From: Agromyces sp. Marseille-P2726
GTDB taxonomy: Bacteria; Actinomycetota; Actinomycetes; Actinomycetales; Microbacteriaceae
Length of the DNA stretch: 64,000 nt
Assembly: GCF_902809835.1 (NCBI RefSeq)
Contig: NZ_CADDWM010000012.1
Coordinates: 250,673 to 314,672 of the forward strand
Reading direction: 5' to 3'
The position numbers and the translations under genes are program-made. Of this stretch, positions 6,268-24,371 are shown one piece after another. Under the pieces are notes generated by a model. The model was not told the origin of the DNA. It did not search any database and saw only the letters and a program-made list of their open reading frames with translations. Every line of letters begins with the position of its first letter. The first letter of the stretch is position 1.

Positions 6268-6956
6268 TGGGAGTCCGGTGGTCATGTAGGCCACGAAGCA
6301 GCCGTATCGAGACCGGCGAGAGGGGTCTCGATACGCGTCGTGCTGCGCGCGCCACTACTCGACCAGCGGTGGGGATCGCAGCGCTCGTCGCGACATCCGC
6401 CCTGCTGCTCACCGGATGCTCGAGCGACCCGCTCGCCGACCAGTATCGCGAAGGCAGCGGCAAGAACTACATCGCCGGCGACGGCACGATCTCGGAGTTC
6501 GCGGCAGACCAGCGCGGCGAGCCGATCGAGTTCTCGGGAGAGACCGTCGAGGGTGGATCGTTCGATTCGTCCGAGACGCTCGGCGATGTGACGGTCGTCA
6601 ACTTCTGGTATGCGGGCTGCGCGCCCTGCCGCGTCGAGGCCCCCATCCTCGAAGAGGTGTCGCAGGAGTTCAGCGACGACGGCGTGAGCTTCGTCGGCGT
6701 GAACGTTCGCGACCAGGCCGGCACCGCGGCATCCTTCGAGAAGACGTACGGGGTCACCTATCCGTCGATCCTCGACGTGAACGAGGGCACGGCGCAGCTC
6801 GCGTTCGCGGGCGACGTGCCGCCCGCCGCCGTGCCGACCACGATCGTGCTCGACCACGACGGCCGCGTCGCCGCGCGCGTACTGGGGCAGCTCACCGAGG
6901 CGTCGATCCTCGAGTCGATCCTCGACTCCCTCCTCGCCGAGCAGGCGTCGGCGTAA
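6267..6956 (+). CDS. TlpA/ResA-like thioredoxin lipoprotein (System II cytochrome c maturation)
   Basis: A 229-residue protein with a lipoprotein signal (LLLTGC, lipidated Cys51) followed by a thioredoxin domain with [11 protein letters not shown] (CxxC at 118-121). It should keep apocytochrome c haem-binding cysteines reduced on the outer face of the membrane, fed by CcdA. ATG 6267 overlaps the upstream stop. Residues about 12-33, before the hydrophobic signal core, are translated from an inserted palindromic element ([20 protein letters not shown]), so the n-region is unusually long. Downstream ccdA starts 20 bp later. Confidence 0.88.
6303..6364. repeat. Palindromic element inside the tlpA-like gene
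   Basis: GTATCGAGACC, a short loop, GGTCTCGATACGCGT and ACTACTCGACCA form the right part of the dispersed element. It is wholly within the coding sequence and is read in frame. Confidence 0.85.
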
Positions 6957-6976
6957 CGGAAGGCGAGGACCGGACT

Positions 6977-7732
6977 GTGGGCGGCGTCGGCGACATCGTG
7001 CTGAACGGGCAGTTGCTCGCGGCGGTGCCGATCGCGCTCGCCGCCGGCGTCGTGTCGTTCCTGTCGCCGTGCGTGCTGCCGCTCGTGCCCGGGTACCTGG
7101 GCTACCTCGGTGGGTTCACGGATGCCTCGGCCGAGGCATCCGAGGAACGACGCAACCGCCTGCGGCTGGTGCTCGGCGTGGGGCTCTTCATCGCCGGCTT
7201 CACGGTCGTGTTCGTGACGTTCAACCTGCTCGCGGGAGTCGCGGGTGCGTGGTTCAACGCGTACGGAGAGGCGATCACGCGGGCGCTCGGCGTGCTGCTC
7301 ATCGTCATGGGGTTCGTGTTCATCGGCCAGTTCACGTTCCTGCAGCGCACGATCAAGCCGTCGTGGCGGCCGGCGACGGGTCTCGCCGGTGCGCCGCTGC
7401 TCGGCGTGGTGTTCGGCCTCGGCTGGACGCCGTGCATCGGCCCGACCCTGGCGGTCGTGCTGTCGTTGAGCGCGAACTCCGCCTCGGCGGGGCGGGCCGT
7501 GCTGCTCGGCCTCGCGTACTGCATCGGCCTCGGCATCCCGTTCCTCCTCGTGGCCCTCGGCTTCGGATGGGTGACGGGTTCGCTCGGGTTCTTCCGTCGG
7601 CACATCCGGGCCATCAACATCATCGGCGGAGCCCTCCTCATCGCGATCGGCGTCTTCATGGTGTCGGGGCTCTGGAGCATCTGGATGTACGAGCTGCAGG
7701 CGGTGATCACCGGCTTTGTCCCAGCGATCTGA
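6977..7732 (+). CDS. ccdA: Cytochrome c biogenesis protein CcdA
   Basis: A 251-residue DsbD-beta/CcdA-type membrane protein with about six transmembrane segments. The two redox cysteines are visible in [13 protein letters not shown] (near residue 34) and [12 protein letters not shown] (near residue 153), the hallmark pair that carries electrons from cytosolic thioredoxin to the extracytoplasmic thioredoxin-like partner. GTG 6977 lies 20 bp after the TlpA-like gene. The 3' end overlaps resB by 17 bp, so the operon is tightly coupled. Confidence 0.93.
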
Positions 7733-9479
7733 TCCCGACGCCCTGTCGCGCCCGGCCGACCACATCGACTCGGTCGAGCCCGCCGCCCCCGACCGCCCTA
7801 CCGTCGACGGCGGCCCTGGCGCGGCATCCGTCACCCGACCGAAGCTCGGCCCGCTCGGCTGGCTGCGCTTCGCGTGGCGGCAGCTCACGAGCATGCGCAC
7901 GGCGCTGCTGCTGCTGTTGCTGCTCGCCATCGCGGCCGTGCCCGGCTCGCTCGTGCCCCAGCGGTCGAGTGACCCGAACGGCGTCACCCAGTACTTCACC
8001 GACAATCCCGACCTCGCGCCGGTGCTCGATCGCTTCCAGTTGTTCGATGTGTACACGTCGGCGTGGTTCTCGGCGGTGTACCTGCTGCTGTTCCTGTCGC
8101 TCATCGGCTGCGTCATCCCGCGCACGAAGCACCACTTCGAGGCGCTGCGAGCCCGGCCGCCCTGGACTCCCGCACGCCTCTCGCGCCTGGCGGGCTACAC
8201 CGAGCGGCCGCTGGTTTCGACGGACGATCTCGATACACCTTCGCCTGCGGCGAGCGCTACTCGATCAGCAGGGGAAGCGATCGACCGGGCGGCGGCCGAG
8301 CTCAAGCGCGCGGGCTACCGCGTCGAGCGCTACGACGTGCGCGGTGAGCCATCGGTCTCGGCCGAGCGCGGCTACCTGCGCGAGACCGGCAACCTCGTGT
8401 TCCACACGGCGCTCCTCGGGGTGCTCGTGGCCGTCGGCATCGGCGGCGGATTCGGGTTCTCGGGCCAGCGGGTCGTCGTCGAGGGGCAGTCGTTCGTGAA
8501 CACGCTGGCCGCCTACGACTCGTTCAACCCTGGCCGCTTCTTCGACGACACGAACCTCGACCCCTATCGGCTCACGCTCGAGGAGCTCGATGCCGTCTAC
8601 GAGACGCGCAACCAGCAGGCGATCGGCCAGCCCATCGACTTCACCGCACGGGTGTCGGTGCAGGGGCAGGGCGGTGCGCCGACGGATGCCACGGTCAAGG
8701 TCAACGAGCCGCTGCGCGTGTTCGGAACCGACGTGTACCTGCTCGGCAACGGGTACGCGCCGACGATCACGGTGCGCAACCCAGACGGCGACGTCGTGTT
8801 CACCGACTCGGTGCCGTTCCTGCCGCAGGACGCGAATCTCACGTCGATCGGCGTCGTGAAGGTGCCCGACGGCCTCGACGAGCAGCTCGGCATGGTCGGC
8901 TTCTTCTATCCGACGCAGACCACGCTCGGCTCGGGCGCCTATGCGTCGAGCTACCCCGACCTCGTGTATCCGGTACTGACCCTGAACGTCTACCAGGGCG
9001 ATCTCGGCATCGACGAGGGCACGCCGACCTCGGTCTACACGCTCGATCCCACGTCGATGGAGCAGCTGACCGGTGGCGAGACGGGCGTGGACTCGATCGA
9101 GCTCATGCCAGGCGACACGGTGGAGCTTCCGAACGGCCTGGGATCCGTGACGTTCGAGGACGTCTCGCCCGACGCCGGGTCGGATGCCGCGGCCGACGTC
9201 TACTCGCAGAGCGTCTCGCGGTTCGCCAGCTTCGACATCCACGACGACCCGTCGCAGGGGTGGGTTCTCGCGTTCGCCGTGCTGATCCTCGCCGGGCTCC
9301 TCGTGTCGCTCTTCGTGCCGCGCCGACGGATGTGGGTGAAGGCCGCGCGCCGGCCCGACGGCACGGTCGTGCTCGAGTACGCGGGCCTCGCACGTGGTGA
9401 AGACCCGGGTCTCGAGGAGGCGGTGCGCGCCTTCGCCGACAAGCACGCCGGGAAGGCTCAGGATGGATCTGCGGATTGA
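7716..9479 (+). CDS. resB: Cytochrome c biogenesis protein ResB
   Basis: A 587-residue ResB/Ccs1. Hydrophobic segments lie near residues 62-80 ([20 protein letters not shown]), 110-130 and 220-240, followed by a large extracytoplasmic domain and a C-terminal membrane segment ([18 protein letters not shown]). With CcsB it forms the System II haem-delivery and ligation complex. The TTG start at 7716 overlaps ccdA; a later start near the RPKLGPLGW stretch is possible. Residues about 166-184 ([13 protein letters not shown]) come from a palindromic element inserted in frame in the region after the second membrane segment. Confidence 0.92.
8213..8268. repeat. Palindromic element inside resB
   Basis: A partial, diverged copy: GGTTTCGACG, ATCTCGATACACC, a GCCTGCGGCGAGC mini-hairpin and GCTACTCGATCA. 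It is read in frame as [13 protein letters not shown]. Confidence 0.75.
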
Positions 9480-9550
9480 GGAGCGGCGCAGCCGCGTCTC
9501 GAAACCTGTCACGATCGGGGTTTCGAGACGCCCGCTGGGCAGGCTCCTCA
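9478..9550. repeat. Palindromic element, GTCTCGAAACC subfamily (resB/ccsB gap)
   Basis: GAGGAGCGGCGCAGCCGCGT, CTCGAAACC and the mirror GGTTTCGAGACGC...GGCTCCTCA form a hairpin that starts in the resB stop codon. GAGGAG replaces GAGTAG here. The same subfamily is inserted in menE. Confidence 0.75.
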
Positions 9551-9575
9551 ACACACAGCAGCAGGTCCCTCGACG

Positions 9576-9587
9576 TAAGGTGGAACG
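9576..9587 (+). promoter_or_regulatory. -10-like box before ccsB
   Basis: TAAGGT (9576-9581), 6 nt, GTG 9588. It may allow ccsB to be transcribed independently of the operon, since the hairpin repeat lies between resB and ccsB. Confidence 0.4.
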
Positions 9588-10583
9588 GTGACGCTCGACG
9601 AGATCTCCCTCACGCTCGTGTACTCGGCGATGGCCGTGTACGCGATCGCGTTCATCGCGTATGCGATCGACCTCGCGCGTCGCTCCGCGGTCGCCACCCA
9701 GGCAGCCGATGCCGCGGGGTCGACCGCTGCCCCCGCAGCTTCCGAGACCGCCGTCGGGGGCGCCGGTACGACGGTGGTCGCACCGCCGAAGCGAGACGCG
9801 GTAACAGTCGCGTACGGCCGCTCGCCATCGCTGCGCGTGGGCGTGGCGCTCACCGTCGTGGCCTGGCTGCTGCACGCGGCCGCCACCGTCACGCGGGGCA
9901 TCGCCGCCGAGCGGGTTCCGTGGGCCAACATGTACGAGTTCGCGCTCACGGGCACGCTCATCATCACGTCCGTCTACCTGGTCGTGCTCGTCGTCTCCAA
10001 GCACGACCTGCGATTCCTCGGCACCTTCGTGACGGGGCTGGTGCTCGTCCTCCTCGGCGTCGCCGCCGTCAACTTCTACGTCAGCGTGGTCCCGCTGCCG
10101 CCGGCGCTGCAGTCGGCATGGCTCGTGATCCACGTGTTCGTGGCGACGAGCGCGACGGGCTTCCTCGCGCTCGGATTCGCGCTGTCGGTCGTACAGCTGC
10201 TGCAGTCGCGGCGCGAGACCCTCGCGGCATCCGCGAAGACCGTGAAGCAGAACTTCCTCGCCACGCTGCCCGATTCGTCGACCCTCGAGAACCTCGCGTA
10301 TCGCGTCATCATCGTCGGCTTCATTCTCTGGACGTTCACGCTCATGGCCGGCGCGATCTGGGCCGAGGCGGCCTGGGGCCGATACTGGGGCTGGGACACC
10401 AAGGAGGTGTGGACCTTCATCATCTGGGTGGTCTACGCCGGGTACATCCATGCGCGTGCGACGCGCGGCTGGCGCGGTTCGCGGTCGGCGTGGCTCGCGA
10501 TCATCGGCTTCTCGACGGTGCTCTTCAACTTCACCGTCGTCAACCTGTTCTTCAAGGGGCTGCACGCGTACTCGGGTCTCTGA
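9588..10583 (+). CDS. ccsB: c-type cytochrome biogenesis protein CcsB (CcsA/CcmC family)
   Basis: A 331-residue polytopic membrane protein with about eight hydrophobic segments. The tryptophan-rich haem-handling motif WGRYWGWDTKEVW lies near residues 262-274, and conserved histidines lie in WLLHAAATV and YAGYIHAR. This is the System II haem exporter/ligase partner of ResB. With the TlpA-like protein, CcdA and ResB it completes a cytochrome c maturation set, next to the menaquinone genes that supply the quinone of the same respiratory chain. Confidence 0.93.
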   Translation: MTLDEISLTLVYSAMAVYAIAFIAYAIDLARRSAVATQAADAAGSTAAPAASETAVGGAGTTVVAPPKRDAVTVAYGRSPSLRVGVALTVVAWLLHAAATVTRGIAAERVPWANMYEFALTGTLIITSVYLVVLVVSKHDLRFLGTFVTGLVLVLLGVAAVNFYVSVVPLPPALQSAWLVIHVFVATSATGFLALGFALSVVQLLQSRRETLAASAKTVKQNFLATLPDSSTLENLAYRVIIVGFILWTFTLMAGAIWAEAAWGRYWGWDTKEVWTFIIWVVYAGYIHARATRGWRGSRSAWLAIIGFSTVLFNFTVVNLFFKGLHAYSGL

Positions 10584-10602
10584 TCCGAGCGGGTCGTCGA
10601 CG

Positions 10603-10614
10603 TACCATCGCTCT
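10603..10614 (+). promoter_or_regulatory. -10-like box before the LAL regulator
   Basis: TACCAT (10603-10608), 6 nt, ATG 10615. The geometry matches the other predicted leaderless genes here, but the box is less close to TAGRCT. Confidence 0.35.
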
Positions 10615-13197
10615 ATGCGCAGGCAGCTGCTCGAGCGAGAGCGGGAACTCGCCGAACTCGACGAGGCGGTGCGCGCCGCCGTCGGCGGGCACGGCCGCGT
10701 GGTGCTGCTCCATGGCGAGGCGGGCATCGGGAAGTCGACGCTCGTCGGCGCGCTGCGCCAGCATCCTCCCGACGGATGCCGCGTGCTCGTCGGCGCGTGC
10801 GACGCGATGTCGACCCCGCGCACGCTCGGGCCGCTGCGCGACCTGATCCCGTTCGTGGGACCCCGCGCGGGGGAGGCGCTCCGCGCGGGTGACCGCGAGG
10901 AGGTCTTCGCCACGTTCCACGAGGAACTCGCTGCGTCATCCGGCACCGTGCTCGTGGTGGAGGACGTGCACTGGGCCGACGAAGCGACGCTCGATGTGCT
11001 CCGCTTCCTCGCGCGCCGCATCGACGAATTGCCCGCGGCGCTCGTGCTCACCTACCGTGACGAACTCGACCGGAACCATCCGCTGAGCCGTCTGCTCGGC
11101 GACCTCGGCCACGGCGGACACGTCGACCGGATTCCGCTGCGGCACCTGTCGGCAGCCGCGGTCGGGACGTTGACGGCCGGCAGCGGCCTCGACGCCGACC
11201 GCATCCATGCGATCACCGACGGAAACCCGTACTTCGTCACCGAGCTGGTCGCCTCGGCCGGCCAAGCCCGGGTGCCGCCGACCGTCGTCGATGCGGTGAC
11301 CGGTCGGCTCCGACGGCTCGATGTCGCCACGCAGGAACACGTCGAGCAGCTCGCCGTGGTCCCCTCCGCGGTGGACCGCGACCTGCTCGCACGCCTGGTG
11401 CCCGAGGGTGAGGGTGCGCTCAGGGCAGCGGAGGAGGGAGGTCTGCTCGCCGTCAGTCCCGACGGCGTCCGGTTCCGGCACGAACTGACCCGGCATGCAG
11501 TCGTCGACGCCCTCCCCACGTCGCGGCGCATCCAGCTCGAACGACGGGTGCTCGCCGAGCTGCTCGCGTCGGGCGTCGCAGATCCGGCGCGATTGGTGCA
11601 CCACGCGCTCGAGGCGGGCGACATCGATGCGGTCGTGGAGTGGGCGCCGCGCGCGGCTCGCGACGCGGCGGTGAGCGGCGCGCACCGGCAGGCGGCCGCA
11701 CACTACCGCGCGGCCATCCAGCACGCTGACCGATACGACATCGCCGAACGCGTCGCGCTCCTCGAGGAGAACGCGATCGAGGCGTACATGCTCGGCGGCG
11801 AACCCGAGGCGGTCGCATCGCAGGAGGAGGTGATCCGTCTGCGGCGCGAGCTCGGAGACGCCGACGCCCTCGGCGCGAGCCTGCGGTGGATGTCCCGGTT
11901 CCAGTGGATCGCCGGGAATCGCCCCGCAGCCGAGGCCGCGGCCGCCGAGGCCTCCGCCGTGCTCGCGGAATCGGAGGACCACGGCCTGCTCGCGCTCGCC
12001 GTGAGCAACGAGGCGCAACTGGCCATGCTCGCCCACGACCTGCCCCGCGCCATCGACCTGGCAACGCGAGCCGTTGCGCTCGCGCGGGATTCGGGCGAAC
12101 GACGTGCGCTCTCGCATGCGCTCAACAACCTCGGCACCGCCCACATGTTCGAGGACGACGACGAGGGCATCCAGGAGCTGCTCGAAGCGGCCGACATCGC
12201 AGCGACGGCGAACTTCATGGACGATGCGGCCCGCGCCCACGTCAACCTGGTCTGGGCCCTGCTCGACCAGTACCGCCTCCACCTCGCCGAGCGCTACCTC
12301 GAGCCGGCGATGGAGTTCTCGGAGCGCACCGAGGTGCTCGGGCTCTGGACCTACCAGCAGGTGGAGCGCGGTCGCCTGCACCTGGCGCGGGCACAGTGGG
12401 ATGACGCGCTGGCGGCCGCCGCGTACTCCTCCGAGGTGCTGCCGCAGGCGCAGTGCGTCGCGCTCACGATCATCGGCACCGTCCGCACCCGGCGAGGGGA
12501 TCCCGACGCGGAGATGGTGCTCGACGAGGCGAGGGACATCGCCGAGCGCTTGGGTGAGCTGCAGCGCACGGGGCCCGTGGCAGCGGCACGAGCCGAGGCC
12601 GCCCTGCTCCGCGGCGATCTCGGCGAAGTGCGAGCGATCGCACGGCCGGCCTACGACGAGGCGAGGCGACTCGAAGACCTGAACCTGCAGGCGGAGCTCG
12701 CCTGGCTGCTGCGCCGTGCCGGGGACGACGCCCAGCCACCCGCGACCGGCCATCCGTTCGCGGTGCAGGCGCGTGGGGACTGGGGCGGCGCCGCCCAGCT
12801 CTGGCGCGAGGCCGGCGCGCCGTACCACGAGGCGCAGGCCCTCGCGGAGAGCCCCGACGACTCCGACCTGCTCGCCGCGCTCGCCATCCTCGATCGCATC
12901 GGCGCCGCGCCGCTCGCGCGCGTGGTGCGTGCCGACCTCCGCGAGCGTGGCGTGCGGAGCATCCCGCGCGGCCCTACGACGCTCACGCGTCAGAACCCCG
13001 AGGGCCTCACGGATCGCCAGGTCGACGTGCTCCGGCTGCTCGCGAAGGGCCTGACGAACGCCGAGATCGCCGATCAGCTCGTGGTCTCGGTTCGCACCGT
13101 CGACAGCCACGTCGCCGCGATCCTCGCGAAGCTCGGCGTGCCCTCGCGGCAGGAAGCGGTCAGTGCCGCGCAGGGCCTCGGGATGCTCTCGGCCTGA
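10615..13197 (+). CDS. LuxR-family regulator with AAA ATPase domain (LAL type)
   Basis: An 860-residue cytosolic regulator. The N-terminal AAA/NACHT-like ATPase has Walker A GEAGIGKST at residues 34-42 and a Walker B-like VLVVEDVHWAD near 113-123. A long helical, TPR-like middle follows. The C-terminal LuxR helix-turn-helix (LTDRQVDVLRLLAKGLTNAE...) spans roughly residues 799-855. Large ATP-binding LuxR (LAL) proteins sense small ligands or proteins through the helical region. The target genes are unknown; neither neighbour suggests one strongly. Confidence 0.9.
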   Translation: MRRQLLERERELAELDEAVRAAVGGHGRVVLLHGEAGIGKSTLVGALRQHPPDGCRVLVGACDAMSTPRTLGPLRDLIPFVGPRAGEALRAGDREEVFATFHEELAASSGTVLVVEDVHWADEATLDVLRFLARRIDELPAALVLTYRDELDRNHPLSRLLGDLGHGGHVDRIPLRHLSAAAVGTLTAGSGLDADRIHAITDGNPYFVTELVASAGQARVPPTVVDAVTGRLRRLDVATQEHVEQLAVVPSAVDRDLLARLVPEGEGALRAAEEGGLLAVSPDGVRFRHELTRHAVVDALPTSRRIQLERRVLAELLASGVADPARLVHHALEAGDIDAVVEWAPRAARDAAVSGAHRQAAAHYRAAIQHADRYDIAERVALLEENAIEAYMLGGEPEAVASQEEVIRLRRELGDADALGASLRWMSRFQWIAGNRPAAEAAAAEASAVLAESEDHGLLALAVSNEAQLAMLAHDLPRAIDLATRAVALARDSGERRALSHALNNLGTAHMFEDDDEGIQELLEAADIAATANFMDDAARAHVNLVWALLDQYRLHLAERYLEPAMEFSERTEVLGLWTYQQVERGRLHLARAQWDDALAAAAYSSEVLPQAQCVALTIIGTVRTRRGDPDAEMVLDEARDIAERLGELQRTGPVAAARAEAALLRGDLGEVRAIARPAYDEARRLEDLNLQAELAWLLRRAGDDAQPPATGHPFAVQARGDWGGAAQLWREAGAPYHEAQALAESPDDSDLLAALAILDRIGAAPLARVVRADLRERGVRSIPRGPTTLTRQNPEGLTDRQVDVLRLLAKGLTNAEIADQLVVSVRTVDSHVAAILAKLGVPSRQEAVSAAQGLGMLSA

Positions 13198-13324
13198 TGT
13201 CGGCAGATCTCGGTAGCGAGAATCGGTGATCTCGGTATCGGTCGCCGATGAATCGAACCTGCTTCGGCGGTGAACTGGGTTCACGGCTCGCACAGGGCGG
13301 GCTCGGCAGTCAGAAGGATTCATC

Positions 13325-13561
13325 ATGGACACCGCACTCTCCATGAGCACCACCGCTCCCGCAGCCGAGGTCGGCGGACACGCGGCGCACGGCGTTGCCG
13401 GACTCGCGCACCGCGTCGGCATGCGACTGGTCGCCTGGGGCCGCGCCGACGAGCAGCGGCACGGCCGTGAGCACCTGGCGTACCTGCACGAGCGGCGGCT
13501 CGAGGCCGAGCGCCCGCGCAACGAGCGCTTCACCAGCGGGGCGTTGACGCGGCTCGGCTGA
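13325..13561 (+). CDS. Small hypothetical protein
   Basis: A 78-residue, Ala/Arg/His-rich ORF with no recognised domain or membrane segment. It starts with ATG after AGAAGGATTCATC, a plausible Shine-Dalgarno, and is followed immediately by the repeat array. Its unique sequence upstream of the array and good ribosome-binding site favour a real gene, but a function cannot be assigned. The 127 bp before it contain repeated GATCTCGGTA words and no other gene. Confidence 0.5.
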   Translation: MDTALSMSTTAPAAEVGGHAAHGVAGLAHRVGMRLVAWGRADEQRHGREHLAYLHERRLEAERPRNERFTSGALTRLG

Positions 13562-13590
13562 CACTCGTTGGTCGGGCGCGGCGGCGCCCC

Positions 13591-14010
13591 GGTGGTCGAG
13601 TAGCGCCGGGCGCAGCCCGGTGGTCGAGTTGCGCCGGGCGCAGCCCGTCGCGTATCGAGACCCGGCGCGAGCACCCGGTGGTCGAGTAGCGCCGGGCGCA
13701 GCCCGTCGCGTATCGAGACCCGGCGCGAGCACCGGGTGGTCGAGTAGCGCCGGGCGCAGCCCGTCGCGTATCGAGACCCGGCGCGAGCACCGGGTGGTCG
13801 AGTAACGCCGGGCGCAGCCCGACGCGTATCGAGACCCGCCGACGCGTCTCGATACGCGTCGCCTGCGGCGGCGCTACTCGACGACCAGTGGCGCAGCCCG
13901 ACGCGTATCGAGACCAGACGACGCGTCTCGATACGCGTCGCCTACGGCGGCGCTACTCGACGACCAGTGGCGCAGCCCGTCGCGTATCGAGACCAGGCGC
14001 CGCGTCTCCA
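13591..14010. repeat. Tandem array of the dispersed palindromic element
   Basis: Copies of GGTGGTCGAGTAGCGCC start at 13619, 13677, 13735 and 13793, an exact 58-bp period. A partial copy lies at 13591. Two mirror-image full elements follow to 14010 (GTCTCGATACGCGTCGCC...GGCGCTACTCGACGACC). No coding sequence is supported in this 420-bp block; the open frames across it are repeat artefacts. Confidence 0.92.
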
Positions 14011-14034
14011 CGTGCTCTGGTGAGCATCCGTGAT

Positions 14035-14090: not shown

Positions 14091-14109
14091 GTTGGTGCTG
14101 GCGGGAATC

Positions 14110-16083: not shown

Positions 16084-16105
16084 CGCGCGCACGGATCAGC
16101 CGGAA

Positions 16106-16117: not shown

Positions 16118-17104
16118 ATGGCGCGCGAGGTCTCCGAACTGTTCGATGCGAACGAGTGGGCGGATGCCGCGGCATTCGTCACCGGCTCATCCGGTTTCAC
16201 CGACATCACCTACCACCACTCGACCGACGGACGCATCGCCCGCATCGCGTTCGATCGGCCCGACGTGCGCAACGCGTTCCGCCCGCACACCGTCGACGAG
16301 CTGTACCGCGCCCTCGAGGACGCGCGCACCAACCCCCGCATCGGCGTGGTGCTGCTCACCGGCAACGGACCCAGTGCGAAGGACGGCGGCTGGGCCTTCT
16401 GCTCGGGCGGCGACCAGCGCATCCGCGGGCGCGACGGATACCGGTACGAGGAACCCGGTGGTCGAGTAGCGCCACCAAAGGCGACGCGTATCGAGACCCA
16501 CGTTCCGGATCTCGATACGCGTCCTTCGGTGGCTACTCGATCAACGGATCTCGGGCGCCTGCACATCCTCGAGGTGCAGCGGCTGATCCGCTTCATGCCG
16601 AAGGTCGTCATCGCGGTGGTCCCGGGCTGGGCGGCCGGCGGGGGACACTCGCTCCACGTCGTCTGCGATCTCACGATCACGAGCCGTGAGCACGGGCGCT
16701 TCAAGCAGACGGATGCCGATGTCGGCAGTTTCGACGCCGGATACGGGTCGGCGTACTTCGCCCGTCAGATCGGGCAGAAGTTCGCCCGCGAGGTGTTCTT
16801 CCTCGCCGAGGAGTACTCCGCCGACCGCGCGTACGAGATGGGCGCCGTGAACCGGGTCGTGCCGCACGCCGACCTCGAGCGCGAGGCGCTGGCGATGGCG
16901 CGCACGATCCTGACGAAGTCGCCCACGGCGATCCGCATGCTGAAGTTCGCGTTCAACGCGGTCGATGACGGGCTGGTCGGGCAGCAGGTGTTCGCCGGAG
17001 AAGCCACGCGGCTCGCGTACGGTACCGACGAGGCCGTCGAGGGCCGCGACGCATTCCTCGAGAAGCGCGACCCCGACTGGGGAGCGTACCCCTGGCACTT
17101 CTGA
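16118..17104 (+). CDS. menB: 1,4-dihydroxy-2-naphthoyl-CoA synthase
   Basis: A 328-residue crotonase-fold enzyme that cyclises o-succinylbenzoyl-CoA. Family landmarks are present: FCSGGDQRIRGRDGY, VVPGWAAGGGHSLHVVCDLT, RFKQTDADVGSFDAGYGSAY, FAGEATRLAYGTDEAVEGRD and the WGAYPWHF C-terminus. About 28 residues (114-142, including GGRVAP, TRIET, LDTRPS and ATRS) are encoded by an in-frame palindromic element. They sit in the loop between the GDQRIRGR segment and HILEVQRL, which is flexible in known MenB structures, so activity is probably kept. menE follows 13 bp downstream. Confidence 0.95.
   Translation: MAREVSELFDANEWADAAAFVTGSSGFTDITYHHSTDGRIARIAFDRPDVRNAFRPHTVDELYRALEDARTNPRIGVVLLTGNGPSAKDGGWAFCSGGDQRIRGRDGYRYEEPGGRVAPPKATRIETHVPDLDTRPSVATRSTDLGRLHILEVQRLIRFMPKVVIAVVPGWAAGGGHSLHVVCDLTITSREHGRFKQTDADVGSFDAGYGSAYFARQIGQKFAREVFFLAEEYSADRAYEMGAVNRVVPHADLEREALAMARTILTKSPTAIRMLKFAFNAVDDGLVGQQVFAGEATRLAYGTDEAVEGRDAFLEKRDPDWGAYPWHF
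16457..16545. repeat. Full palindromic element inside menB
   Basis: GGTGGTCGAGTAGCGCC, CGACGCGTATCGAGACC, the mirror GATCTCGATACGCGTC and GGCTACTCGATCA are all present, with both mini-hairpin arms (CCACCAAAGG / CCTTCGGTGG). The whole 89 bp is translated. Confidence 0.92.
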
Positions 17105-17117
17105 GGATCCCGACGCG

Positions 17118-18389
17118 ATGAAACCCCTTGTGCAGGTGTCGGCGACGGATGTCCCTGCGTTGGCCGCGGCGTTTCGGGTCGCGCTCGACGGCGGGCCGGC
17201 CGTGTGGCCGGTGCCATCCCCTCTGCGGGGTGAGGAGCCCGCGAAGCGGGCGTCTCGAAGCCCGTATGCGCCGGTGGGTCTCGAGACGGATGGCCTGCAT
17301 CCTCCTCGACCTGCAGAGGTCGGGGACGGGGTCGCACTCGTCGTCGAGACGAGCGGGTCGACGGATGCCCCGAAGCGGGTGCTGCTCTCGCGAGACGCGT
17401 TGCGCGCCGCCGCGGCGGCGACCGAGGCTGCGCTGAGCGGACCGGGACAGTGGCTCCTGGCGCTGCCGGCCCACTACATCGCGGGCGCCCAGGTGCTCGT
17501 GCGGTCCATCCTCGCGGGCACCGACCCGGTGCTGCTCGAGGCGGAGCCCGAGGGTTCGGGCGGCGGCTTCCAACCGGCGGCGTTCGCCGCGGCATCCGCC
17601 CGACTCGATCGGCACCGCCCGCGCTACACGTCACTCGTGCCGGTGCAGCTCGCGCGGCTCGTCGAGGCGGCGCAGACCGACCGCGTCGTGGCCGACGCGC
17701 TTCGCACGTTCGATCGCATCCTGCTCGGCGGCCAGGCCGCACCGCCCGCCCTCATCGTCGCGGCCGACGCGATCGGCGCACGGGTGACCCGCACCTACGG
17801 CTCGAGCGAGACCGCCGGCGGATGCGTCTACGACGGCCGTCCCCTCGACGACGTGCGCGTACGGATCGATGACGCGTGGAGCGGCCCGGGGCGCGACGGC
17901 CAGGTGCTGCTGGGCGGGCCCATGATCGCCGACGGCTACCTCGACGACCCCGAGCGCACCGCCGCGGCCTTCACCGAGGACGACGCCGGCACGCGCTGGT
18001 ACCGCACCGGCGACCTCGGCGAACTCCGACGCGACGGCATCCTGCGCATCCGAGGTCGGATGGACGACGTCATCATCTCGGGCGGCGTCAAGGTCGTGCT
18101 CGGCGAGGTCGAGCGGGCGGTGCGCCGGGTGCCCGGCTACGAGCATGCGATCGCGGTGCGTACCGAGGACACCGAGTGGGGCGAGCGGGTGGCGGTCGTC
18201 GCAGAGCGAACGGATGCCGCGGCATCCGGCGACCTCGAGACCCTCGCCGCGGCGGCCGATGCAGCGGGGCTCTCGCCCGCGGCGCGCCCCGTGCGCCTCG
18301 AGCTCGTCGACCGGATGCCGCTGCTGCCCTCGGGCAAGCCCGACCGCCGCGCCCTCGAGGGGAGGTTGCGCGGCGGCGGGCCTGCATAG
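17118..18389 (+). CDS. menE: o-succinylbenzoate--CoA ligase
   Basis: A 423-residue short-form acyl-adenylate enzyme. It carries the AMP-binding signature VETSGSTDAPKRVLLS (about residues 74-89), RTYGSSETAGGCVYDGR, the TGDLGEL motif and the C-terminal lysine in LLPSGKPDRRAL. It activates o-succinylbenzoate to its CoA thioester for MenB. Residues about 33-65 (GEEPAKRASRS, then GLETDGLHPPRP) are translated from a GAGGAG-type palindromic element just before the P-loop. ATG 17118 has weak ribosome-binding potential; coupling to menB is likely. Confidence 0.93.
   Translation: MKPLVQVSATDVPALAAAFRVALDGGPAVWPVPSPLRGEEPAKRASRSPYAPVGLETDGLHPPRPAEVGDGVALVVETSGSTDAPKRVLLSRDALRAAAAATEAALSGPGQWLLALPAHYIAGAQVLVRSILAGTDPVLLEAEPEGSGGGFQPAAFAAASARLDRHRPRYTSLVPVQLARLVEAAQTDRVVADALRTFDRILLGGQAAPPALIVAADAIGARVTRTYGSSETAGGCVYDGRPLDDVRVRIDDAWSGPGRDGQVLLGGPMIADGYLDDPERTAAAFTEDDAGTRWYRTGDLGELRRDGILRIRGRMDDVIISGGVKVVLGEVERAVRRVPGYEHAIAVRTEDTEWGERVAVVAERTDAAASGDLETLAAAADAAGLSPAARPVRLELVDRMPLLPSGKPDRRALEGRLRGGGPA
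17217..17312. repeat. Palindromic element (GAGGAG subfamily) inside menE
   Basis: GGTGAGGAGCCCGCGAAGCG, GGCGTCTCGAAGCCC, GGTCTCGAGACGG and CCTCCTCGACC are the four arms of the subfamily also seen at 9478-9550. It is read in frame throughout. Confidence 0.78.
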
Positions 18390-18394
18390 GCGCG

Positions 18395-19897
18395 TCAAGA
18401 CACGGGGGTCGCCGCCGTGTGGGCCGGCAGGGCCTCCGCGGCATCCGCTTCGACGTCGGCCTCGGCGAGCCGGCGTGCCTCGTCGAGGTGGGCCTGCACC
18501 TGAGCCCGGCTCGGCAGCAGCACGCTGGCGAGCGCGGCGAGCGCGAAGCCCGCGACCGCGACCCAGACCGACGCCTGCAGCGCCTCGAGCACGTGCTCGC
18601 GACTCCAGTCGTCGCCGGCAATCGTGAAGAACACGGTCGTCGACACGGCGACGCCGGCCGCTGCGCCGAGCTGCTGGAACGTGCTGTACGCACCCGATGC
18701 GGCGCCCGCATCGGCCACGGGCACGGTCGCGAGCGCGACGTCGACGAGCGGGATGATGAGCAGCGCCAGCCCGAGACCGGCCATGAGCATGGGCCAGACG
18801 GCGGCCCACCCCGTGAAGTCGGCCCCGGCGTCGGCCACGATGGCGAAGACCCACACGACGCCGGCCGCCATGATCACCGCACCGGTCGTCACGAGGTACT
18901 TCCCGACCTTCGCCACGAGCGGGATGACCGCACCCGTGCCGACGAGTGCGCCGAGGCTGAGGGCGAGCAGGTTGAGGCCGGCCGTGAGCGCGTCGAACCC
19001 GAGCGCGACCTGGAGGTAGATGATGAACGGCAGCGTGAAGGCGTTCAGCGCCCCTTGGAATGCCGCCTGGGTCACGATGCCGGCCGAGAATCCGCGATCG
19101 GCGAAGAGCGGCATGGGCAGCAGTGCCGAATGGTCGCGGCGCATGCGACGGTTCGAGTAGGCGACGAACGCCGCGAGCAGCAGCACACCGACGCCGACGG
19201 GGATCCAGAGCCAGGCCGGCCACCCGAGTGTCTGACCCTCGACGAGGGGCACCATGAACGCCAGCACGAGCGCGCTGAGCAGGGCGACGCCGACCAGATC
19301 GAGCCGCATGGGGCGCGAGGAGCGCGTCTCGGGTACGAACCGCGCAGCGAGCGCGAAGATCACGATGCCGACGGGAACGTTGATGAGGAACACGCTGCGC
19401 CACCCGAGGCCCCAGAGGTCGGCATCGACGAGCCAACCGCCGAGCACCGGGCCGGCGACGGCCGCGATTCCGGCCACGCCTCCGATGAGGCCGTACATCG
19501 GCGCGCGTTCGCGCGGGGAGAACAGCGCCTGCACTGACGCGAGCAGCTGCGGCACCATGAGCGCGGCGAACAGTCCCTGCGCGATGCGAGTGGCGACGAG
19601 GACGTCGCCCGACCACGCCGCAGCGGCGGCCGCGGACGCGAGCGTGAAGCCGGTGATGCCGACGAGGAACAGGCGCCGCCGGCCGTACAGGTCGCCGAGC
19701 CGCCCCCCGGTGATCAGCGCCACGGCGAATGCGAGCAGGTAGCCGCTCACGATCCATTCGAGCTGTGCCTCGGATGCCGCGAGGTCGGCGCCGATCGACG
19801 GCAGCGCCACCTGCACGATCGTGACATCGAGCAGGTCCATGAATGAGGCGAACAGGAGGATGCCGATGGCGAGCCCTCGGCGTGGAGTGGTGGCCAT
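18395..19897 (-). CDS. MFS transporter, DHA2 (EmrB/QacA-like) family
   Basis: A 500-residue protein with about 14 hydrophobic segments. Motifs of the drug:H+ antiporter-2 group are visible: LLDVTIVQVALPSIGADL in TM1, GRLGDLYGRRR (motif A) after TM2 and GPVLGGWL (motif C) in TM5. It probably exports a toxic small molecule. ATG 19897 has AAGGG 11 nt upstream. It is divergent from a MarR regulator across a 97-bp spacer containing palindromes, so MarR-controlled efflux is the natural reading. The cytosolic C-terminal tail is acidic and alanine-rich. Confidence 0.92.
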   Translation of the reverse strand: MATTPRRGLAIGILLFASFMDLLDVTIVQVALPSIGADLAASEAQLEWIVSGYLLAFAVALITGGRLGDLYGRRRLFLVGITGFTLASAAAAAAWSGDVLVATRIAQGLFAALMVPQLLASVQALFSPRERAPMYGLIGGVAGIAAVAGPVLGGWLVDADLWGLGWRSVFLINVPVGIVIFALAARFVPETRSSRPMRLDLVGVALLSALVLAFMVPLVEGQTLGWPAWLWIPVGVGVLLLAAFVAYSNRRMRRDHSALLPMPLFADRGFSAGIVTQAAFQGALNAFTLPFIIYLQVALGFDALTAGLNLLALSLGALVGTGAVIPLVAKVGKYLVTTGAVIMAAGVVWVFAIVADAGADFTGWAAVWPMLMAGLGLALLIIPLVDVALATVPVADAGAASGAYSTFQQLGAAAGVAVSTTVFFTIAGDDWSREHVLEALQASVWVAVAGFALAALASVLLPSRAQVQAHLDEARRLAEADVEADAAEALPAHTAATPVS

Positions 19898-19934
19898 GCT
19901 CGTCGTCCCTTCGTAGAATGAGTTCGTTTCCGGT

Positions 19935-19972
19935 TCGGGATAGTCCCGACCTAGAATAATCCCACTTCGGGA
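19935..19972. promoter_or_regulatory. Probable MarR operators between the MFS and MarR genes
   Basis: Two palindromes built on the same half-site lie 10 bp apart: TCGGGATAGTCCCGA (19935-19949) and TCCCACTTCGGGA (19960-19972). The AT-rich TAGAATAAT between them (19952-19960) resembles a -10 region. This is a standard layout for autoregulation by a divergent MarR protein. Confidence 0.6.
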
Positions 19973-19994
19973 ACAATAGGGAGTCGCGATCGAG

Positions 19995-20441
19995 ATGTCA
20001 AGCAAGTCGAAGGTCACCGAGCGCATCGTCGATCTCCTGCAGCTCGTGATCGCCTCCTCGGTCATGAGCAACGAGCGCATCGCGCGCTCCATGGGGCTCA
20101 ACGTGGTCGACCTGCAGGCGCTGGGGTTCATCGCGCGCAACGACGGCGGGATGACCGCCGGAGAGGTGAGCCAGCAGACCGAGCTTCCGACCAGCACGAC
20201 GACGCGCGTGCTCGACCGCCTCGAGCGGCAGGGCTTCATCGAGCGGTCCACGGACCCGAACGATCGACGTCGCGTGGTCGTGCGCGTCCGGCCCGATGCG
20301 GTGCGAGGCGCCGGCGAGGGCGGGGAGGACGACCCGTACGCCGACATCCTCGCCGGCATGAAGCGGATCCACGAGGGCTTCTCGGTCGACGAGCTCGAGG
20401 TCGTGGCCCGCTACCTCGACGCACTGAAGGACCTGCGCTGA
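19995..20441 (+). CDS. MarR-family transcriptional regulator
   Basis: A 148-residue winged-helix repressor. The recognition region is GEVSQQTELPTSTTTRVLDRLERQGFIER, followed by the wing DPNDRRRVVVRV, typical of MarR. N- and C-terminal helices would form the dimer interface. ATG 19995 follows GGGAGTCGCGATCGAG. Divergent from the MFS pump, which it probably represses by binding the palindromes in the shared spacer. Confidence 0.9.
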   Translation: MSSKSKVTERIVDLLQLVIASSVMSNERIARSMGLNVVDLQALGFIARNDGGMTAGEVSQQTELPTSTTTRVLDRLERQGFIERSTDPNDRRRVVVRVRPDAVRGAGEGGEDDPYADILAGMKRIHEGFSVDELEVVARYLDALKDLR

Positions 20442-20462
20442 CCCCGACCGCGGAGGAGCCCC

Positions 20463-20573
20463 GGTGGCCGAGTAGCGCCGACGACGTCGACGCGTATCGA
20501 GACGCAGTGATCTCTCCGAACCAGCACTTCGTCTCGATACGCGTCCGCCTGCGGCGGGCGCTACTCGACGACC
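20463..20573. repeat. Full palindromic element (MarR/menA gap)
   Basis: GGTGGCCGAGTAGCGCC, CGACGCGTATCGAGAC, a 34-nt unique loop, GTCTCGATACGCGTCCGCC and GGGCGCTACTCGACGACC. It ends 10 bp before the menA -10 box. Confidence 0.9.
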
Positions 20574-20583
20574 AAGCGCGAAC

Positions 20584-20595
20584 TAGCATGGCCGT
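20584..20595 (+). promoter_or_regulatory. -10 box supporting the GTG start of menA
   Basis: TAGCAT (20584-20589), GGCCGT, GTG 20596. The spacing favours GTG 20596 over the in-frame ATG at 20620. Confidence 0.45.
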
Positions 20596-21591
20596 GTGGC
20601 ACGCCCAAGACCTCAACGGATGAACCCCGACGACCTCGCGAAGCGTGGCGCCGCGCACCGGCGGTCGGGAAATCCGGCGAGGGCTGCAGCCGGCCCCACC
20701 GGGTCTCGCGGTCCGGCCACCGCGGCGGACTGGGTCGCCGGTGCCCGCATCCGCACGCTGCCGCTGGCGATCGCTCCGGTCGCACTGGGTACGGGCGCCG
20801 GTGTCGTCGCGATCCCCGATGGACCGTGGCATCCGGCCCGCGCCCTGCTCGCGCTCGTCGTGGCGCTCGCGCTGCAGATCGCCGTGAACTACGCGAACGA
20901 CTACTCCGACGGCGTGCGCGGCACCGACGAGCATCGCGTCGGTCCCGCTCGCCTGACCGGATCGGGGGCCGCCAAGCCGCGGCAGGTGCTCGCGGTGGCG
21001 CTCAGCTTCTTCGCGATCGCCGCGGTCGCCGGCCTCGCGCTCGTCGTCGTGACCCAGCAGTGGTGGCTGCTCGTCGTCGGCGCAGTCGCCATCGTCTCGG
21101 CGTGGTTCTACACGGGCGGCAAGCGCCCCTACGGGTACTACGGGCTCGGCGAGCTCTTCGTGTTCGTGTTCTTCGGACTCGTCGCGACGGCGGGATCCGC
21201 GTACGTGCAGGCCCTCACGGTGAACCTCGAGGCCTGGCTCGGCGGCGCAGGCGTCGGCCTCCTCGCGTGCGCGGTGCTCATGTCGAACAACCTCCGCGAC
21301 GTCACGCAAGACAAGGCAGCCGGCAAGCGCACCCTGGCCGTGCTCATCGGCCCGCTCGCCGGGCGCATCCTGCTCGTGGTCTTCCTGCTCGTGCCGTTCG
21401 CGATCGTCGGGTTCTTCGCGCTGTTCTACCCCACGGCGATCCTCGTGCTGTTCGCGCTGCTCCTCGCAGTGCCGGCGTGCGTCATCGCGCTCCTCGCGAA
21501 GACGCCACGGGAACTGCTGCTCGTGCTGCAGCTGGCGAGCATCACCGCCCTCGTCTACGGGGTCGGCCTGGGGCTCGTCTTCGCCCTCTAG
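20596..21591 (+). CDS. menA: 1,4-dihydroxy-2-naphthoate polyprenyltransferase
   Basis: A 331-residue UbiA-superfamily membrane enzyme that attaches the polyprenyl chain to DHNA. The two aspartate-rich motifs are NYANDYSDGVRGTD (near residue 98) and NNLRDVTQDKAAGKR (near residue 236), with about eight membrane segments between and after them. The first about 35 residues are polar and specific to this group. The 3' end overlaps the convergent DUF4229 gene by 4 bp. Confidence 0.94.
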   Translation: MARPRPQRMNPDDLAKRGAAHRRSGNPARAAAGPTGSRGPATAADWVAGARIRTLPLAIAPVALGTGAGVVAIPDGPWHPARALLALVVALALQIAVNYANDYSDGVRGTDEHRVGPARLTGSGAAKPRQVLAVALSFFAIAAVAGLALVVVTQQWWLLVVGAVAIVSAWFYTGGKRPYGYYGLGELFVFVFFGLVATAGSAYVQALTVNLEAWLGGAGVGLLACAVLMSNNLRDVTQDKAAGKRTLAVLIGPLAGRILLVVFLLVPFAIVGFFALFYPTAILVLFALLLAVPACVIALLAKTPRELLLVLQLASITALVYGVGLGLVFAL

Positions 21592-21881
21592 GCGTCGGCG
21601 TTGTCGCGACGCTCGGAGGGAGTCGCGTCGACCGCGGCATCCTCGACCTCGTCATCGTCGCGCACGACGGGCGTCTCGCGGTGGCGTGCGGCGTAGAGCT
21701 CGCTCGACATGGTCTCGCGCGGGCGACGGAGGAAGACGAGCGACGCGCTGAGCCCGAACAGTGCGGCGACGGCCGCCGACACCCACGGGTTGACCCCCGC
21801 GAGCAGCAGCACCGCGAGTGGCACTGCGAACAGCAGGATGCGCAACGCGGTGTACCAGATCCAGACGGGCACGGATTTCAC
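21588..21881 (-). CDS. DUF4229 domain-containing membrane protein
   Basis: A 97-residue protein with two hydrophobic segments (WIWYTALRILLFAVPLAVLL and VSAAVAALFGLSASLVFL), then a basic turn RRPRE and an acidic tail. It matches the actinobacterial DUF4229 family usually found beside menA; the function is unknown. I prefer GTG 21881 to ATG 21884, because TACACT lies exactly 6 nt upstream of the GTG, as for other leaderless genes here. Confidence 0.8.
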   Translation of the reverse strand: MKSVPVWIWYTALRILLFAVPLAVLLLAGVNPWVSAAVAALFGLSASLVFLRRPRETMSSELYAARHRETPVVRDDDEVEDAAVDATPSERRDNADA

Positions 21882-21893
21882 CATGCCAGTGTA
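21882..21893 (-). promoter_or_regulatory. -10 box deciding the DUF4229 start
   Basis: Minus-strand TACACT (21893-21888), GGCATG, GTG 21881. If ATG 21884 were used, the gap would be only 3 nt. Confidence 0.4.
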
Positions 21894-21943
21894 GGTCGGC
21901 CCTGCCTGAACGCTCTCACAGCCGCAGTCGGGCGCGACGCGCC

Positions 21944-21955
21944 TAGACTGTGAGC
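21944..21955 (+). promoter_or_regulatory. -10 box for a leaderless PLDc_N gene transcript
   Basis: TAGACT (21944-21949), GTGAGC, ATG 21956. This supports ATG 21956 over the GTG at 21950. Confidence 0.5.
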
Positions 21956-22480
21956 ATGGCCCGGCTGCTCTTCGGACTCGGCGTCGCTTACGTGGTCTTC
22001 ACCATCTACGCCGTCGCCGACTGCGCCTTCTTCGACCGGTCGCGAGTCCGAGGGCTTTCGCGCGGCTGGTGGATCGTCGTGATCATGTTCGTCCCGATCA
22101 TCGGCGGCGTGCTGTGGTTCATCATCGGCCGCGGCCGGGCGAATCGGGTGGGTCCGTCGCGAGGTGGCACGATGGCGCCCGACGACGATGCTGAGTTCCT
22201 GCGCCAGCTGCGCAACGATGCCGCGCAAGCCGAGCGCATCCGCCGCCTCGAGCAGGACCTCGCCGAGCTCGACGCCGACGACGCGCCGCGTGGAGCGCTG
22301 GGTCCGGGGCGCACGTCCGAGGGTGCCTCGGCCGCCGGCACCGCCGGCGCGGGAAGTGGCGCTGCGGCATCCGACGACCCCTTCGACCCCGGAGACGCCC
22401 TCGGCACCGAGCGCAAGCAGCGCCCCGATGCCCCCGATGCACCAGGGGAGGCCGGTCCCACCGGTCGACCGAATGCCTGA
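21956..22480 (+). CDS. PLDc N-terminal domain (PLDc_N) membrane protein
   Basis: A 174-residue protein. Residues 1-60 hold two membrane segments around [18 protein letters not shown] and the end [17 protein letters not shown], the classic PLDc_N (phospholipase D-nuclease N-terminal) module. The remainder is a cytosolic, charged, probably disordered tail with a short coiled coil ([17 protein letters not shown]). There is no catalytic HKD motif. The stop overlaps the menD start by 8 bp, so it sits in the menaquinone operon by position only. Confidence 0.82.
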
Positions 22481-24371
22481 ACCCGGTCCCGACGCGACGA
22501 CGGAGCAAGGGAGTCCGGCGAGCGACGCTGCAATGGCGCTGCTCAGCGCCTTCGTCGCGGCCGGTGTGCGCGACGTCGTCGTCGCCCCGGGGTCGCGATC
22601 GCAGGCGCTGGCCCTCGCGGCGGCCGAGCTCGAGCGCGTCGGCGCCATCCGCCTGCACGTGCGCATCGACGAGCGTGGAGCGGGGTTCCTCGCGCTCGGC
22701 ACGGCGGTGGAGTCCGGGTTTCCGGCCGTCGTGGTCACGACGTCGGGCACCGCGGTCGCGAACCTGCACCCGGCGGTGCTCGAGGCGCACCATTCCGGCG
22801 TGCCGCTGATCATCTGCTCGGCCGATCGCCCGGCGGAGCTCCGCGGCATCCGCTCGAACCAGACCACCATGCAGCCCGGCATCTTCGCCGGCGCCGTGCG
22901 GCTCGAACGCGACGTCACCGCCCCCGAGGGTGCAGCGGGCGAAACGGATGCCGCGGCGCGCCTCGCCCGTGACGCCGTCTCGGCGGCACTCGGCCGCGAC
23001 AGCTCGGGCGAGCTCGTCCCACACCCCGGCCCCGGTCCGGTGCACCTCAACCTGCAGTACCGCGAGCCCTTGTCGGCCGTGCTGACGCTGGAGGGCGTGC
23101 CCGCTCCGAACGGCGGGAACGGTGGTCGGGTAGCGCCCGGCGAAGCCGGGAACGCTTCGAGAGCCGGGTCGAGAGGTCTCGATACGCGTGCTTCGCGCGC
23201 TCCTCGACCAGCAGACGTCGCGACCATCGAGCCCCGACCGCGCACCGTCGTGGTCGCGGGTGCGGGCGCCGGGCCGGTCGCGGAGGAGTTCGCACGTGCC
23301 GGTGGATGGCCCCTCATCGCCGAGGTCACGAGCGGGGCGCACTTCGGACCGAATCTCGTCGTGGCCTACCGCGAGCTGCTGCGCGAATCCGAATTCGGCG
23401 GTGCCGTCGAACGAGTCGTGGTGTTCGGCCATCCGACGCTGTCGCGCGAGGTGCCGGCGCTCGTGCAGCGCGACGGCGTCGAGACGATCGTCGTCGCGCC
23501 CACGGGCATCGAGTGGTACAACCCGGGTCACCGCGTGGCTCGGTTCGAGCGGGCGGTGCAGGCCGCCGACCACGCGCCGACCGCCGAGGAGCGTGCCTGG
23601 GTGCGTCGCTGGGTGCACGCGAGCCGCGTGCTCCTCGCCGAGGAATCGCCCGAGGCCCCCACCGTCAGGAGTGGGATCGGCGAGCACGGGCACGTCTCCG
23701 ACTTCACCGCACAGCGCGAGTACATGCGCGCACAGCTCGCCATGGTGCGGGCGCCGGTCACCCGCCGCATGCTCGTCGACGCGGTGTGGGCGGCGACCTG
23801 GCCGCACGACCGGCTGGTGTTCGGGGCATCCCGCCTCATCCGCGACGCCGACCGGGCCGTGCCGGGCCGCCGCATCCCCGTGCACGCGAACCGCGGCCTC
23901 GCGGGCATCGACGGCACCGTCGCCACCGCGATCGGCATCGCCCTCGCGAGCCAATCGCCGCAGCCTCCGAGACCATCCCCGATGACAGGGCAGACGCCGA
24001 CTCGGGGCACCGCCGACGGTGCGATGACGGATGCCGCGGCCGGCGTGACCCGTGCCCTCATCGGCGACCTCACACTGCTCCACGACGTGTCGTCGCTCCT
24101 CTTCGGGGATGGCGAACCGCGGCCCCGCATCCAGCTCATCGTCGGCAACGACGGCGGAGGCACGGTCTTCGATGCGCTCGAGGTCGCGGCATCCGCGTCA
24201 TCCGAGGCGTTCGACCGCGTGCAGTACACGCCGCAGCACGTCGATCTCGCCGCGCTCGCGTCGGCCTACGGCTGGAGCTACGCGAGAGCGACGACCCGAG
24301 GCGAGCTCGATGAGGCGCTGACGAGTCGCATCGGCGGACCGCAACTGCTCGAGGTCCCGATCCCGCGTTGA
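22473..24371 (+). CDS. menD: 2-succinyl-5-enolpyruvyl-6-hydroxy-3-cyclohexene-1-carboxylate synthase
   Basis: A 632-residue ThDP enzyme, about 80 longer than the usual MenD. Landmarks: [15 protein letters not shown] and [18 protein letters not shown], the ThDP-activating Glu region [32 protein letters not shown], and [15 protein letters not shown] near the C-terminus. It makes SEPHCHC from isochorismate and 2-oxoglutarate. Residues about 216-246 ([23 protein letters not shown]) are a translated palindromic element at the PYR/central domain junction. A second low-complexity insert ([19 protein letters not shown]) lies near residue 510. ATG 22473 overlaps the preceding stop. Confidence 0.94.
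23121..23210. repeat. Palindromic element inside menD
   Basis: GGTGGTCGGGTAGCGCCC, GGCGAAGCCGGG, AACGCTTCGAGAGCC, GGTCTCGATACGCGT and CGCTCCTCGACCA. It mixes features of both subfamilies and is read in frame. Confidence 0.85.

Follow-up and report, generated by a model that had tools for sequence, protein, structure and literature searches.

A palindromic element read in frame within core protein genes of Agromyces sp. Marseille-P2726

How does a repeat found mainly between genes come to lie inside core protein genes, and in which frames is it read there? The question is raised by a 64,000-nucleotide stretch of Agromyces sp. Marseille-P2726 (contig NZ_CADDWM010000012.1, positions 250,673 to 314,672; here called the window), in which the original prediction placed a dispersed palindromic element inside the tlpA-like gene, resB, menB, menE and menD, always in the same frame, and proposed an actinobacterial analogue of the Rickettsia palindromic elements (RPEs) that tolerates or selects protein insertion. 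The element was followed through 1.09 Mb of the 3.56-Mb host genome (31%), other Agromyces genomes and their relatives.

The repeat unit is a half-element, mostly 35-41 nt, consisting of the arm GGTCGAGTAGCG, a variable self-complementary centre and the arm CGTATCGAGACC. It occurs singly, in arrays, or as palindromes of two halves head to head (53 pairs, some 80-115 nt, mostly with 7-11 nt between). The arms are a genuine dispersed repeat, as had been proposed: GGTCTCGATACG occurs in 296 copies in the genome (<=1 mismatch) versus 4 for the reversed pattern, and 251 half-elements (<=5 mismatches over 24 arm bases) versus 6 in reversed sequence were found in 688,909 bp, made up of the window and stretches picked for holding an exact arm. 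A blind 400-kb sample from one contig of the same genome held only 19 halves, so the window is an element-rich region. Besides this first subfamily there are a second, GTTGAGGAGC..GTCTCGAAAC, and a third, the 19-nt palindrome GGTTTCGACAAGCTCAACC. All five genes carry element sequence in frame, at the following window positions (ORF, open reading frame):

6280..6364, + strand: inverted pair at the start of the tlpA-like lipoprotein gene (ORF 6267-6956), preceding the signal-peptide core; + half with 4 mismatches in phase 2, - half with 1 mismatch in phase 0
8226..8266, - strand: single inverted half in resB (7716-9479); 3 mismatches, phase 0
16460..16542, + strand: inverted pair in menB (16118-17104), in a loop flanked by RGRDGY and GRLHILEVQ; GRVAPPKATRIETHVPDLDTRPSVATRS
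17228..17311, + strand: mixed pair in menE (ORF 16965-18389), a second-subfamily + half and a first-subfamily - half; peptides GEEPAKRASRS and GLETDGLHPPR, 3 and 4 mismatches, phases 1 and 0
23124..23209, + strand: inverted pair in menD (within ORF 22164-24371)

The start of tlpA is taken to be ATG 6267. In all five genes the inverted half (GGTCTCGATACG..CGCTACTCGACC on the gene strand) stands in one codon phase (5/5) and reads xLDT or GLET, then an ATR-type peptide. The direct half, present in four of the five, takes phase 0 in menB and menD, phase 2 in tlpA and phase 1 in menE. The claim of a single frame therefore stands for the inverted half and fails for the direct half; it also fails in other species, as described below.

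Across the sampled genome, in-frame copies occupy 16 sites in 14 genes: tlpA, resB, menB, menE, menD, clpC (two sites), hutH (a tandem double), an APH-aminotransferase fusion (two sites), and genes for a nitronate monooxygenase, an SNF2 helicase, an AidB-like protein, an enolase-superfamily protein, ligD and hutI. The names tlpA, resB, menE, menD and hutI were assigned by reading, with menD backed by a Pfam TPP-enzyme domain only. A first scan of 106 clusters returned 15 with an open element and coding flanks on the same strand and in the same frame, of which two were chance matches in ordinary sequence, one was a probable leader and 12 were kept; tlpA, menE, the first APH-aminotransferase array and the HutI-like gene complete the 16. 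Another 16 clusters had same-strand coding flanks that were frame-shifted or separated by a stop; by eye, 15 are gene ends or boundaries and the last belongs to the APH-aminotransferase in-gene array. Six weak matches in ordinary gene sequence were dropped by eye (L093:19187, L095:19504, L187:4435, L190:16047, L210:12972 and L094:2958), L108:11507 was left out of the site count, and so were two arrays that probably precede a start codon (window 51649 and the upstream array of L115, the latter in phase 2).

At 15 of the 16 sites the inverted half is in phase 0 (GLDT..ATR type), the exception being the first APH-aminotransferase array in phase 2 (P = 8e-7 at a chance of 1/3 per phase, equal chances serving as a yardstick only). 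First-subfamily direct halves take phase 0 at seven sites and phase 2 at two; in the second subfamily phase 0 begins GGT TGA, and the menE half uses phase 1. As the original prediction remarked, other frames of the inverted half are open too: 101 distinct intergenic halves, read in inverted orientation, are open in 101, 100 and 100 cases for the three phases. Read as direct halves, 90 of these 101 are closed in phase 1.

For all five window genes, orthologues free of the element were found, as the original prediction had asked. The alignments show inserts that differ between species, that occupy loops, linkers or the front of a signal peptide, and that reuse the same linkers; the other two subfamilies behave in the same way. 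Rows of tlpA without the element begin shortly before the hydrophobic core (by eye), and the resB loop varies in length and content across 30 aligned rows. Six of 34 MenB rows carry the insert, corresponding to five genomes (L001 and L152 are apparently one genome), namely our own, G013/A. cavernae, G057, G031 and G002; in the remaining 28 the loop is shorter or, in L167, long but different. The insert falls at a short loop of Mycobacterium tuberculosis MenB (1q51), where the alignment gaps. The menE linker is highly variable in length among 33 rows, one of which (L160) carries a first-subfamily insert, and MenD has two insert-prone places, the linker at 23124-23209 holding other inserts or none in 20 orthologues. 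Recognisable inserts were present in 3 of 30 HutH rows and, at ClpC linker 2, in 10 of 30. On a ClpC-core tree (quick method), presence of the insert at linker 2 (third-subfamily copies in L258 and L261 being scored absent) requires six changes, five of them forced by starred branches, so this one linker has seen repeated gain or loss. In HutH, ClpC linker 2, the nitronate monooxygenase and the enolase-superfamily protein, too, the insert coincides with a gap or break in the alignment to a solved structure; the orthologue and structure alignments leave out the AidB, LigD, APH-aminotransferase and HutI sites. In other species, element peptides form long in-frame tandem expansions in the SNF2 helicase of G058 (L305) and MenD of G020 (L231).

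What follows insertion was examined in menB. Compared with four insert-sharing genomes, the insert (34-35 codons) gave proportions of nonsynonymous and synonymous differences (pN/pS) of 0.20/0.19, 0.27/0.29, 0.26/0.55 and 0.23/0.22, while nearby flanks had pN of 0.01-0.02 and pS of 0.30-0.42; net length differences are whole codons. With insert pN near pS and constrained flanks, the gene is constrained and its frame kept, and the inserted residues are nearly free. The genes are not pseudogenes as far as tested, and of the two words in the original proposal "tolerates" holds up, "selects" fitting less well with an insert whose pN is near pS in three of four comparisons. In an AlphaFold model of MenB (mean predicted local distance difference test score, pLDDT, 72.7; M. 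tuberculosis MenB ranked first with Foldseek), residues 113-148 fall under pLDDT 50, with further low-confidence segments at 99-111, 201-208, 285-318 and 324-328; residues 113-148 are not predicted to fold, and the model supports nothing beyond that.

These observations are probably best explained by a small non-autonomous element, resembling repetitive extragenic palindromes (REPs) or miniature inverted-repeat transposable elements (MITEs), that has spread in Agromyces and whose in-gene survivors preserve the reading frame and contribute a polar, flexible segment. The imperfect hairpin half, often doubled head to head, would spread by way of an enzyme or by hairpin-templated copying, and new copies would land widely. 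Those that survive inside genes would be the ones that keep the frame and place a polar stretch at a loop, linker or signal-peptide front, a pattern seen at the sites above and presumably produced by selection. Thereafter the gene would hold its frame as the inserted residues drift almost freely, as in menB, and decay, and inserts could multiply in tandem, as in menD and the SNF2 helicase of other species. The inserts would then be translated, apparently adding some 12 to 30, at times many more, loosely constrained residues to flexible parts of core proteins.

Why, then, one phase for the inverted half? The phase used encodes 14% order-promoting residues, against 40% and 24% in the others (by disorder and hydropathy scales), and it has the worst codon fit (-0.50 versus -0.26 and -0.23). 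Codon usage was accordingly rejected as the cause, and the fewest order-promoting residues together with the worst codon fit point to the peptide rather than to translation speed. The excess of one frame would on this account stem from the phase poorest in order-promoting residues, and we infer that it reflects survival of the peptide most innocuous for its place. The insertion reaction itself could instead impose the bias, if its target motif lay preferentially in one codon phase of GC-rich genes and no peptide selection were involved. The outer flank of the first arm is usually CCGGT in this genome, a motif that may be phase-biased in such genes. In G005, another Agromyces, CCGCC prevails in its place, and beyond it identity at any position stays within about two thirds, so CCGGT looks like part of the element. 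Moreover, within pairs only the inverted half is fixed in phase 0; its direct partner is found in phase 0, 1 or 2. The bias on the inverted half is a result from the sampled part of this genome; scanning sister genomes for the arms, as had been suggested, turned up other frames: the tlpA signal-peptide front is read in phase 2 in five other genomes (SRYARFARYST type), and the third subfamily reads VSTGSTS in resB of two genomes (phase worked by hand) and GFDKLNQ type in clpC. An insertion bias is hence an unlikely source of the pattern.

Several observations weigh against the reading of frame-keeping survivors with harmless peptides. Besides the poor codon fit, the direct half is more often read in phase 0 although its phase 2 would be the more polar. 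That no gene broken by the element was seen holds for the inspected clusters, the 69 with non-coding flanks not having been viewed singly; no clean pair of empty and filled sites was found, nor a target duplication. The blind 400 kb of the same genome yielded no in-gene copy and two weak chance matches, and a 400-kb sample of G005, with 174 halves, no convincing in-gene copy; tolerance of such copies may differ between lineages or element types. Stops occur within the matched resB of G006 and hutH of G041 and G050 (those in resB of L122 and clpC of L247 fall beyond the gene end). At resB and ClpC linker 1, element-free rows have loops of similar or varied length, with no clean added block, and long menB loops without the element exist in other genera (e.g., L046). 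In the comparison with L154, menB insert pN is about half of pS. Presence of the ClpC linker 2 insert is also somewhat clustered on the tree, 18 of 500 shuffles being as low, and the changes do not separate gain from loss.

A second alternative is a classical GTAG REP moved by a Y1-family REP-associated tyrosine transposase (RAYT). Such REPs are described in passages of PMC3733652 as short palindromes that form head-to-head dimers and clusters, lie rarely between divergent genes and supply TAG as a stop codon. The Agromyces element is similarly a short stem-loop of high copy number, in pairs and clusters, mostly intergenic and with few copies between divergent genes; its arm holds GTAG (GGAG in the second subfamily), and its TAG or TGA serves neighbouring genes as a stop (e.g., ..PSPVVE-stop), the upstream gene ending inside the element at window 9474-9553, L117:6578-6750, L108:13017-13057, L112:10352-10392 and L187:17973-18340. 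The GTAG, however, sits within the arm rather than as a free terminal tag, the conserved sequence running on outward as CCGGTGGTCGA. Pfam Y1_Tnp (PF01797) had no match in any of 60 Agromyces genomes or of 16 Microbacteriaceae relatives that bear the element, with 5 of 14 controls positive, and a RAYT origin was rejected on its absence from all 76 genomes tested. We consider this origin improbable.

Alternatively, the inserts might have functions of their own, in binding, assembly or regulation, and be kept by selection on the peptide. Similar peptides do recur across many proteins, and the same linkers are reused across species; on the other side stand a menB insert with pN near pS in three of four comparisons, presence that varies between species, and lengths that vary up to long tandem arrays, which together make this a very doubtful account. 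That the segments are excised from the RNA, or that translation skips them, leaving the proteins without them, is scarcely credible. No observation in this analysis supports it. In-gene copies are open in the gene frame and preserve it, despite the mostly closed phase 1 of direct halves in intergenic copies, and a segment bound for removal would have no need of this. The Rfam matches in the window held only a tRNA.

That survey, at gathering thresholds, returned no family matching the element, and a known RNA family was rejected; plasmid or phage carriage was rejected too, a 106-base copy of the element having no match in plasmid and phage collections ("distant" mode, E 1e-3). The half looks kept as a hairpin, given pairs that covary among 88 distinct 41-nt halves (1:41, GC 62/CG 20; 2:40, GC 68/AT 16; 15:25, CG 50/GC 34; 16:24, GC 56/CG 25; counts given without a shuffled control). 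A lone half folds modestly better than shuffles, 9 of 200 being equally good. Within the covarying stem, a GA/GA mismatch at positions 5-6 and 36-37 is almost invariant (87 and 85 of 88) and could be a protein-binding feature. Truncated 29-nt units are repeated behind a complete half at 41572-41634 and 51744-51877, which suggests tandem growth from one end of the element.

Further element copies in the window are:

3955..4038: inverted pair, non-coding flanks
5467..5552: inverted pair, non-coding flanks
9474..9553: second-subfamily pair (GGTTGAGGAG..CGTCTCGAAACC) after resB, the arm carrying the resB TGA stop (..DGSAD-stop)
13594..14008: half array with 58- and 79-nt repeat units
20466..20570: inverted pair outside menE, flanked by the ORF ending at 20441 and the ORF starting at 20596
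27936..28134: half array
30763..30876: half; a second arm lies downstream of it
41313..41634: array made up of four + and three - halves, two of the - halves being truncated
51649..51877: pair with four truncated units just upstream of a transporter-permease-like ORF (named by eye)
61474..61933: half array

The cluster at 51649..51877 is open in the permease-like frame and is probably leader rather than protein; its inverted halves lie in phases 0, 1, 2, 0 and 1. For the 84 clusters not classed as in-gene (the tlpA and menE clusters, although in genes, are at least among them), the neighbouring genes are co-directional at 64, convergent at 14 and divergent at 4, with 2 unplaced. Divergent genes seldom have an element between them: 4 of 82 placed clusters, set against 64 of 294 crude neighbouring gene pairs from the blind sample (164 co-directional, 66 convergent and 64 divergent). 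G005 (L201-L220) has many arrays, with 16 of 28 clusters between convergent genes.

The nearest named relatives of the host by MenB are Agromyces species, A. cavernae first. The exact first-subfamily half, searched for in the genus and in a phylum sample, occurs in 39 of 60 Agromyces genomes (115 copies in our own) and in 3 of 296 phylum-sample genomes, all Agromyces; that sample held one other Microbacteriaceae genome. Among 249 Microbacteriaceae genomes from 85 genera, 18 genomes and 11 genera have the second subfamily. At <=3 mismatches, the third has 14 copies in 760 kb of loci from other Agromyces, 9 in family loci (950 kb) and a single one in the 1.09 Mb of our own genome, with no match in reversed controls; it lies in frame in clpC (L258, L261, L244 and L247) and resB (L141 and L146).

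RPEs are among the closest described repeats. They are palindromic repeats found in frame in many unrelated genes, with units of about 150 bp (passages of PMC10969869) or tagged by CGTC (passages of PMC3733652). The Agromyces element shares the habit of entering unrelated protein genes in frame; it differs in phylum and in its hairpin halves of about 35-41 nt, the comparison being by description, not alignment. A C:G terminal pair with an arm starting CGTC occurs in 20 of 88 halves, the C covarying with its partner, so that there is no free tag. The proposed analogy to RPEs is nonetheless supported by the in-frame inserts, the element-free orthologues and the constrained menB flanks, and in this respect the element works as RPEs do. 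Intragenic REPs encoding 20-30, up to 82, residues are reported in Opitutus terrae, Thauera, Xanthomonas and others, with recB in two Xanthomonas named as a same-site case, whereas the in-gene copies in Agromyces reuse the same linkers of several genes across species; Actinobacteria are not among the phyla listed in those passages, and the word is absent from the text (PMC3733652).

With MITEs the element shares small size, lack of genes, inverted-repeat ends and high copy number; no target-site duplication was seen. Flanks beyond the element are not strongly conserved, and a clean empty site was not to be had. Mycobacterial interspersed repetitive units (MIRUs) are known as short actinobacterial repeats at gene junctions rather than as inserts in core proteins, and are set apart here by description only. 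In agreement with the original prediction, which knew of no description for Microbacteriaceae, none was found in the open-access papers searched, and five arm strings searched as text matched, by title, papers on other topics only. In-frame palindromic inserts as such are already known (RPEs; intragenic REPs in Opitutus, Thauera and Xanthomonas). New, as far as the literature search shows, are the phylum, the lack of a detected Y1-type enzyme, the parallel subfamilies, and recurrence with tandem growth at the same linkers within one genus.

A bolder proposal can be offered only tentatively: that the subfamilies form a Microbacteriaceae hairpin superfamily, mobilised by a novel enzyme, with an inverted half shaped so that one frame gives a harmless disordered linker, and that in one genus this superfamily has repeatedly founded new linkers, taken the place of old ones and amplified them in tandem, each time in the same core proteins. 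If true, the superfamily would be a continuing source of new protein linkers. Comparison of element-rich with element-poor species offers a route to the mobiliser, and the 60 Agromyces genomes, with species-varying inserts at the same linkers, make insertion survival, accepted frames and rates of residue drift measurable. For annotators and structural biologists there is a caution, in that loops of Agromyces core enzymes may be repeat insertions. Beside Rickettsia and the REP-bearing phyla, Agromyces thus provides what is probably a GC-rich actinobacterial case of repeated DNA becoming protein.

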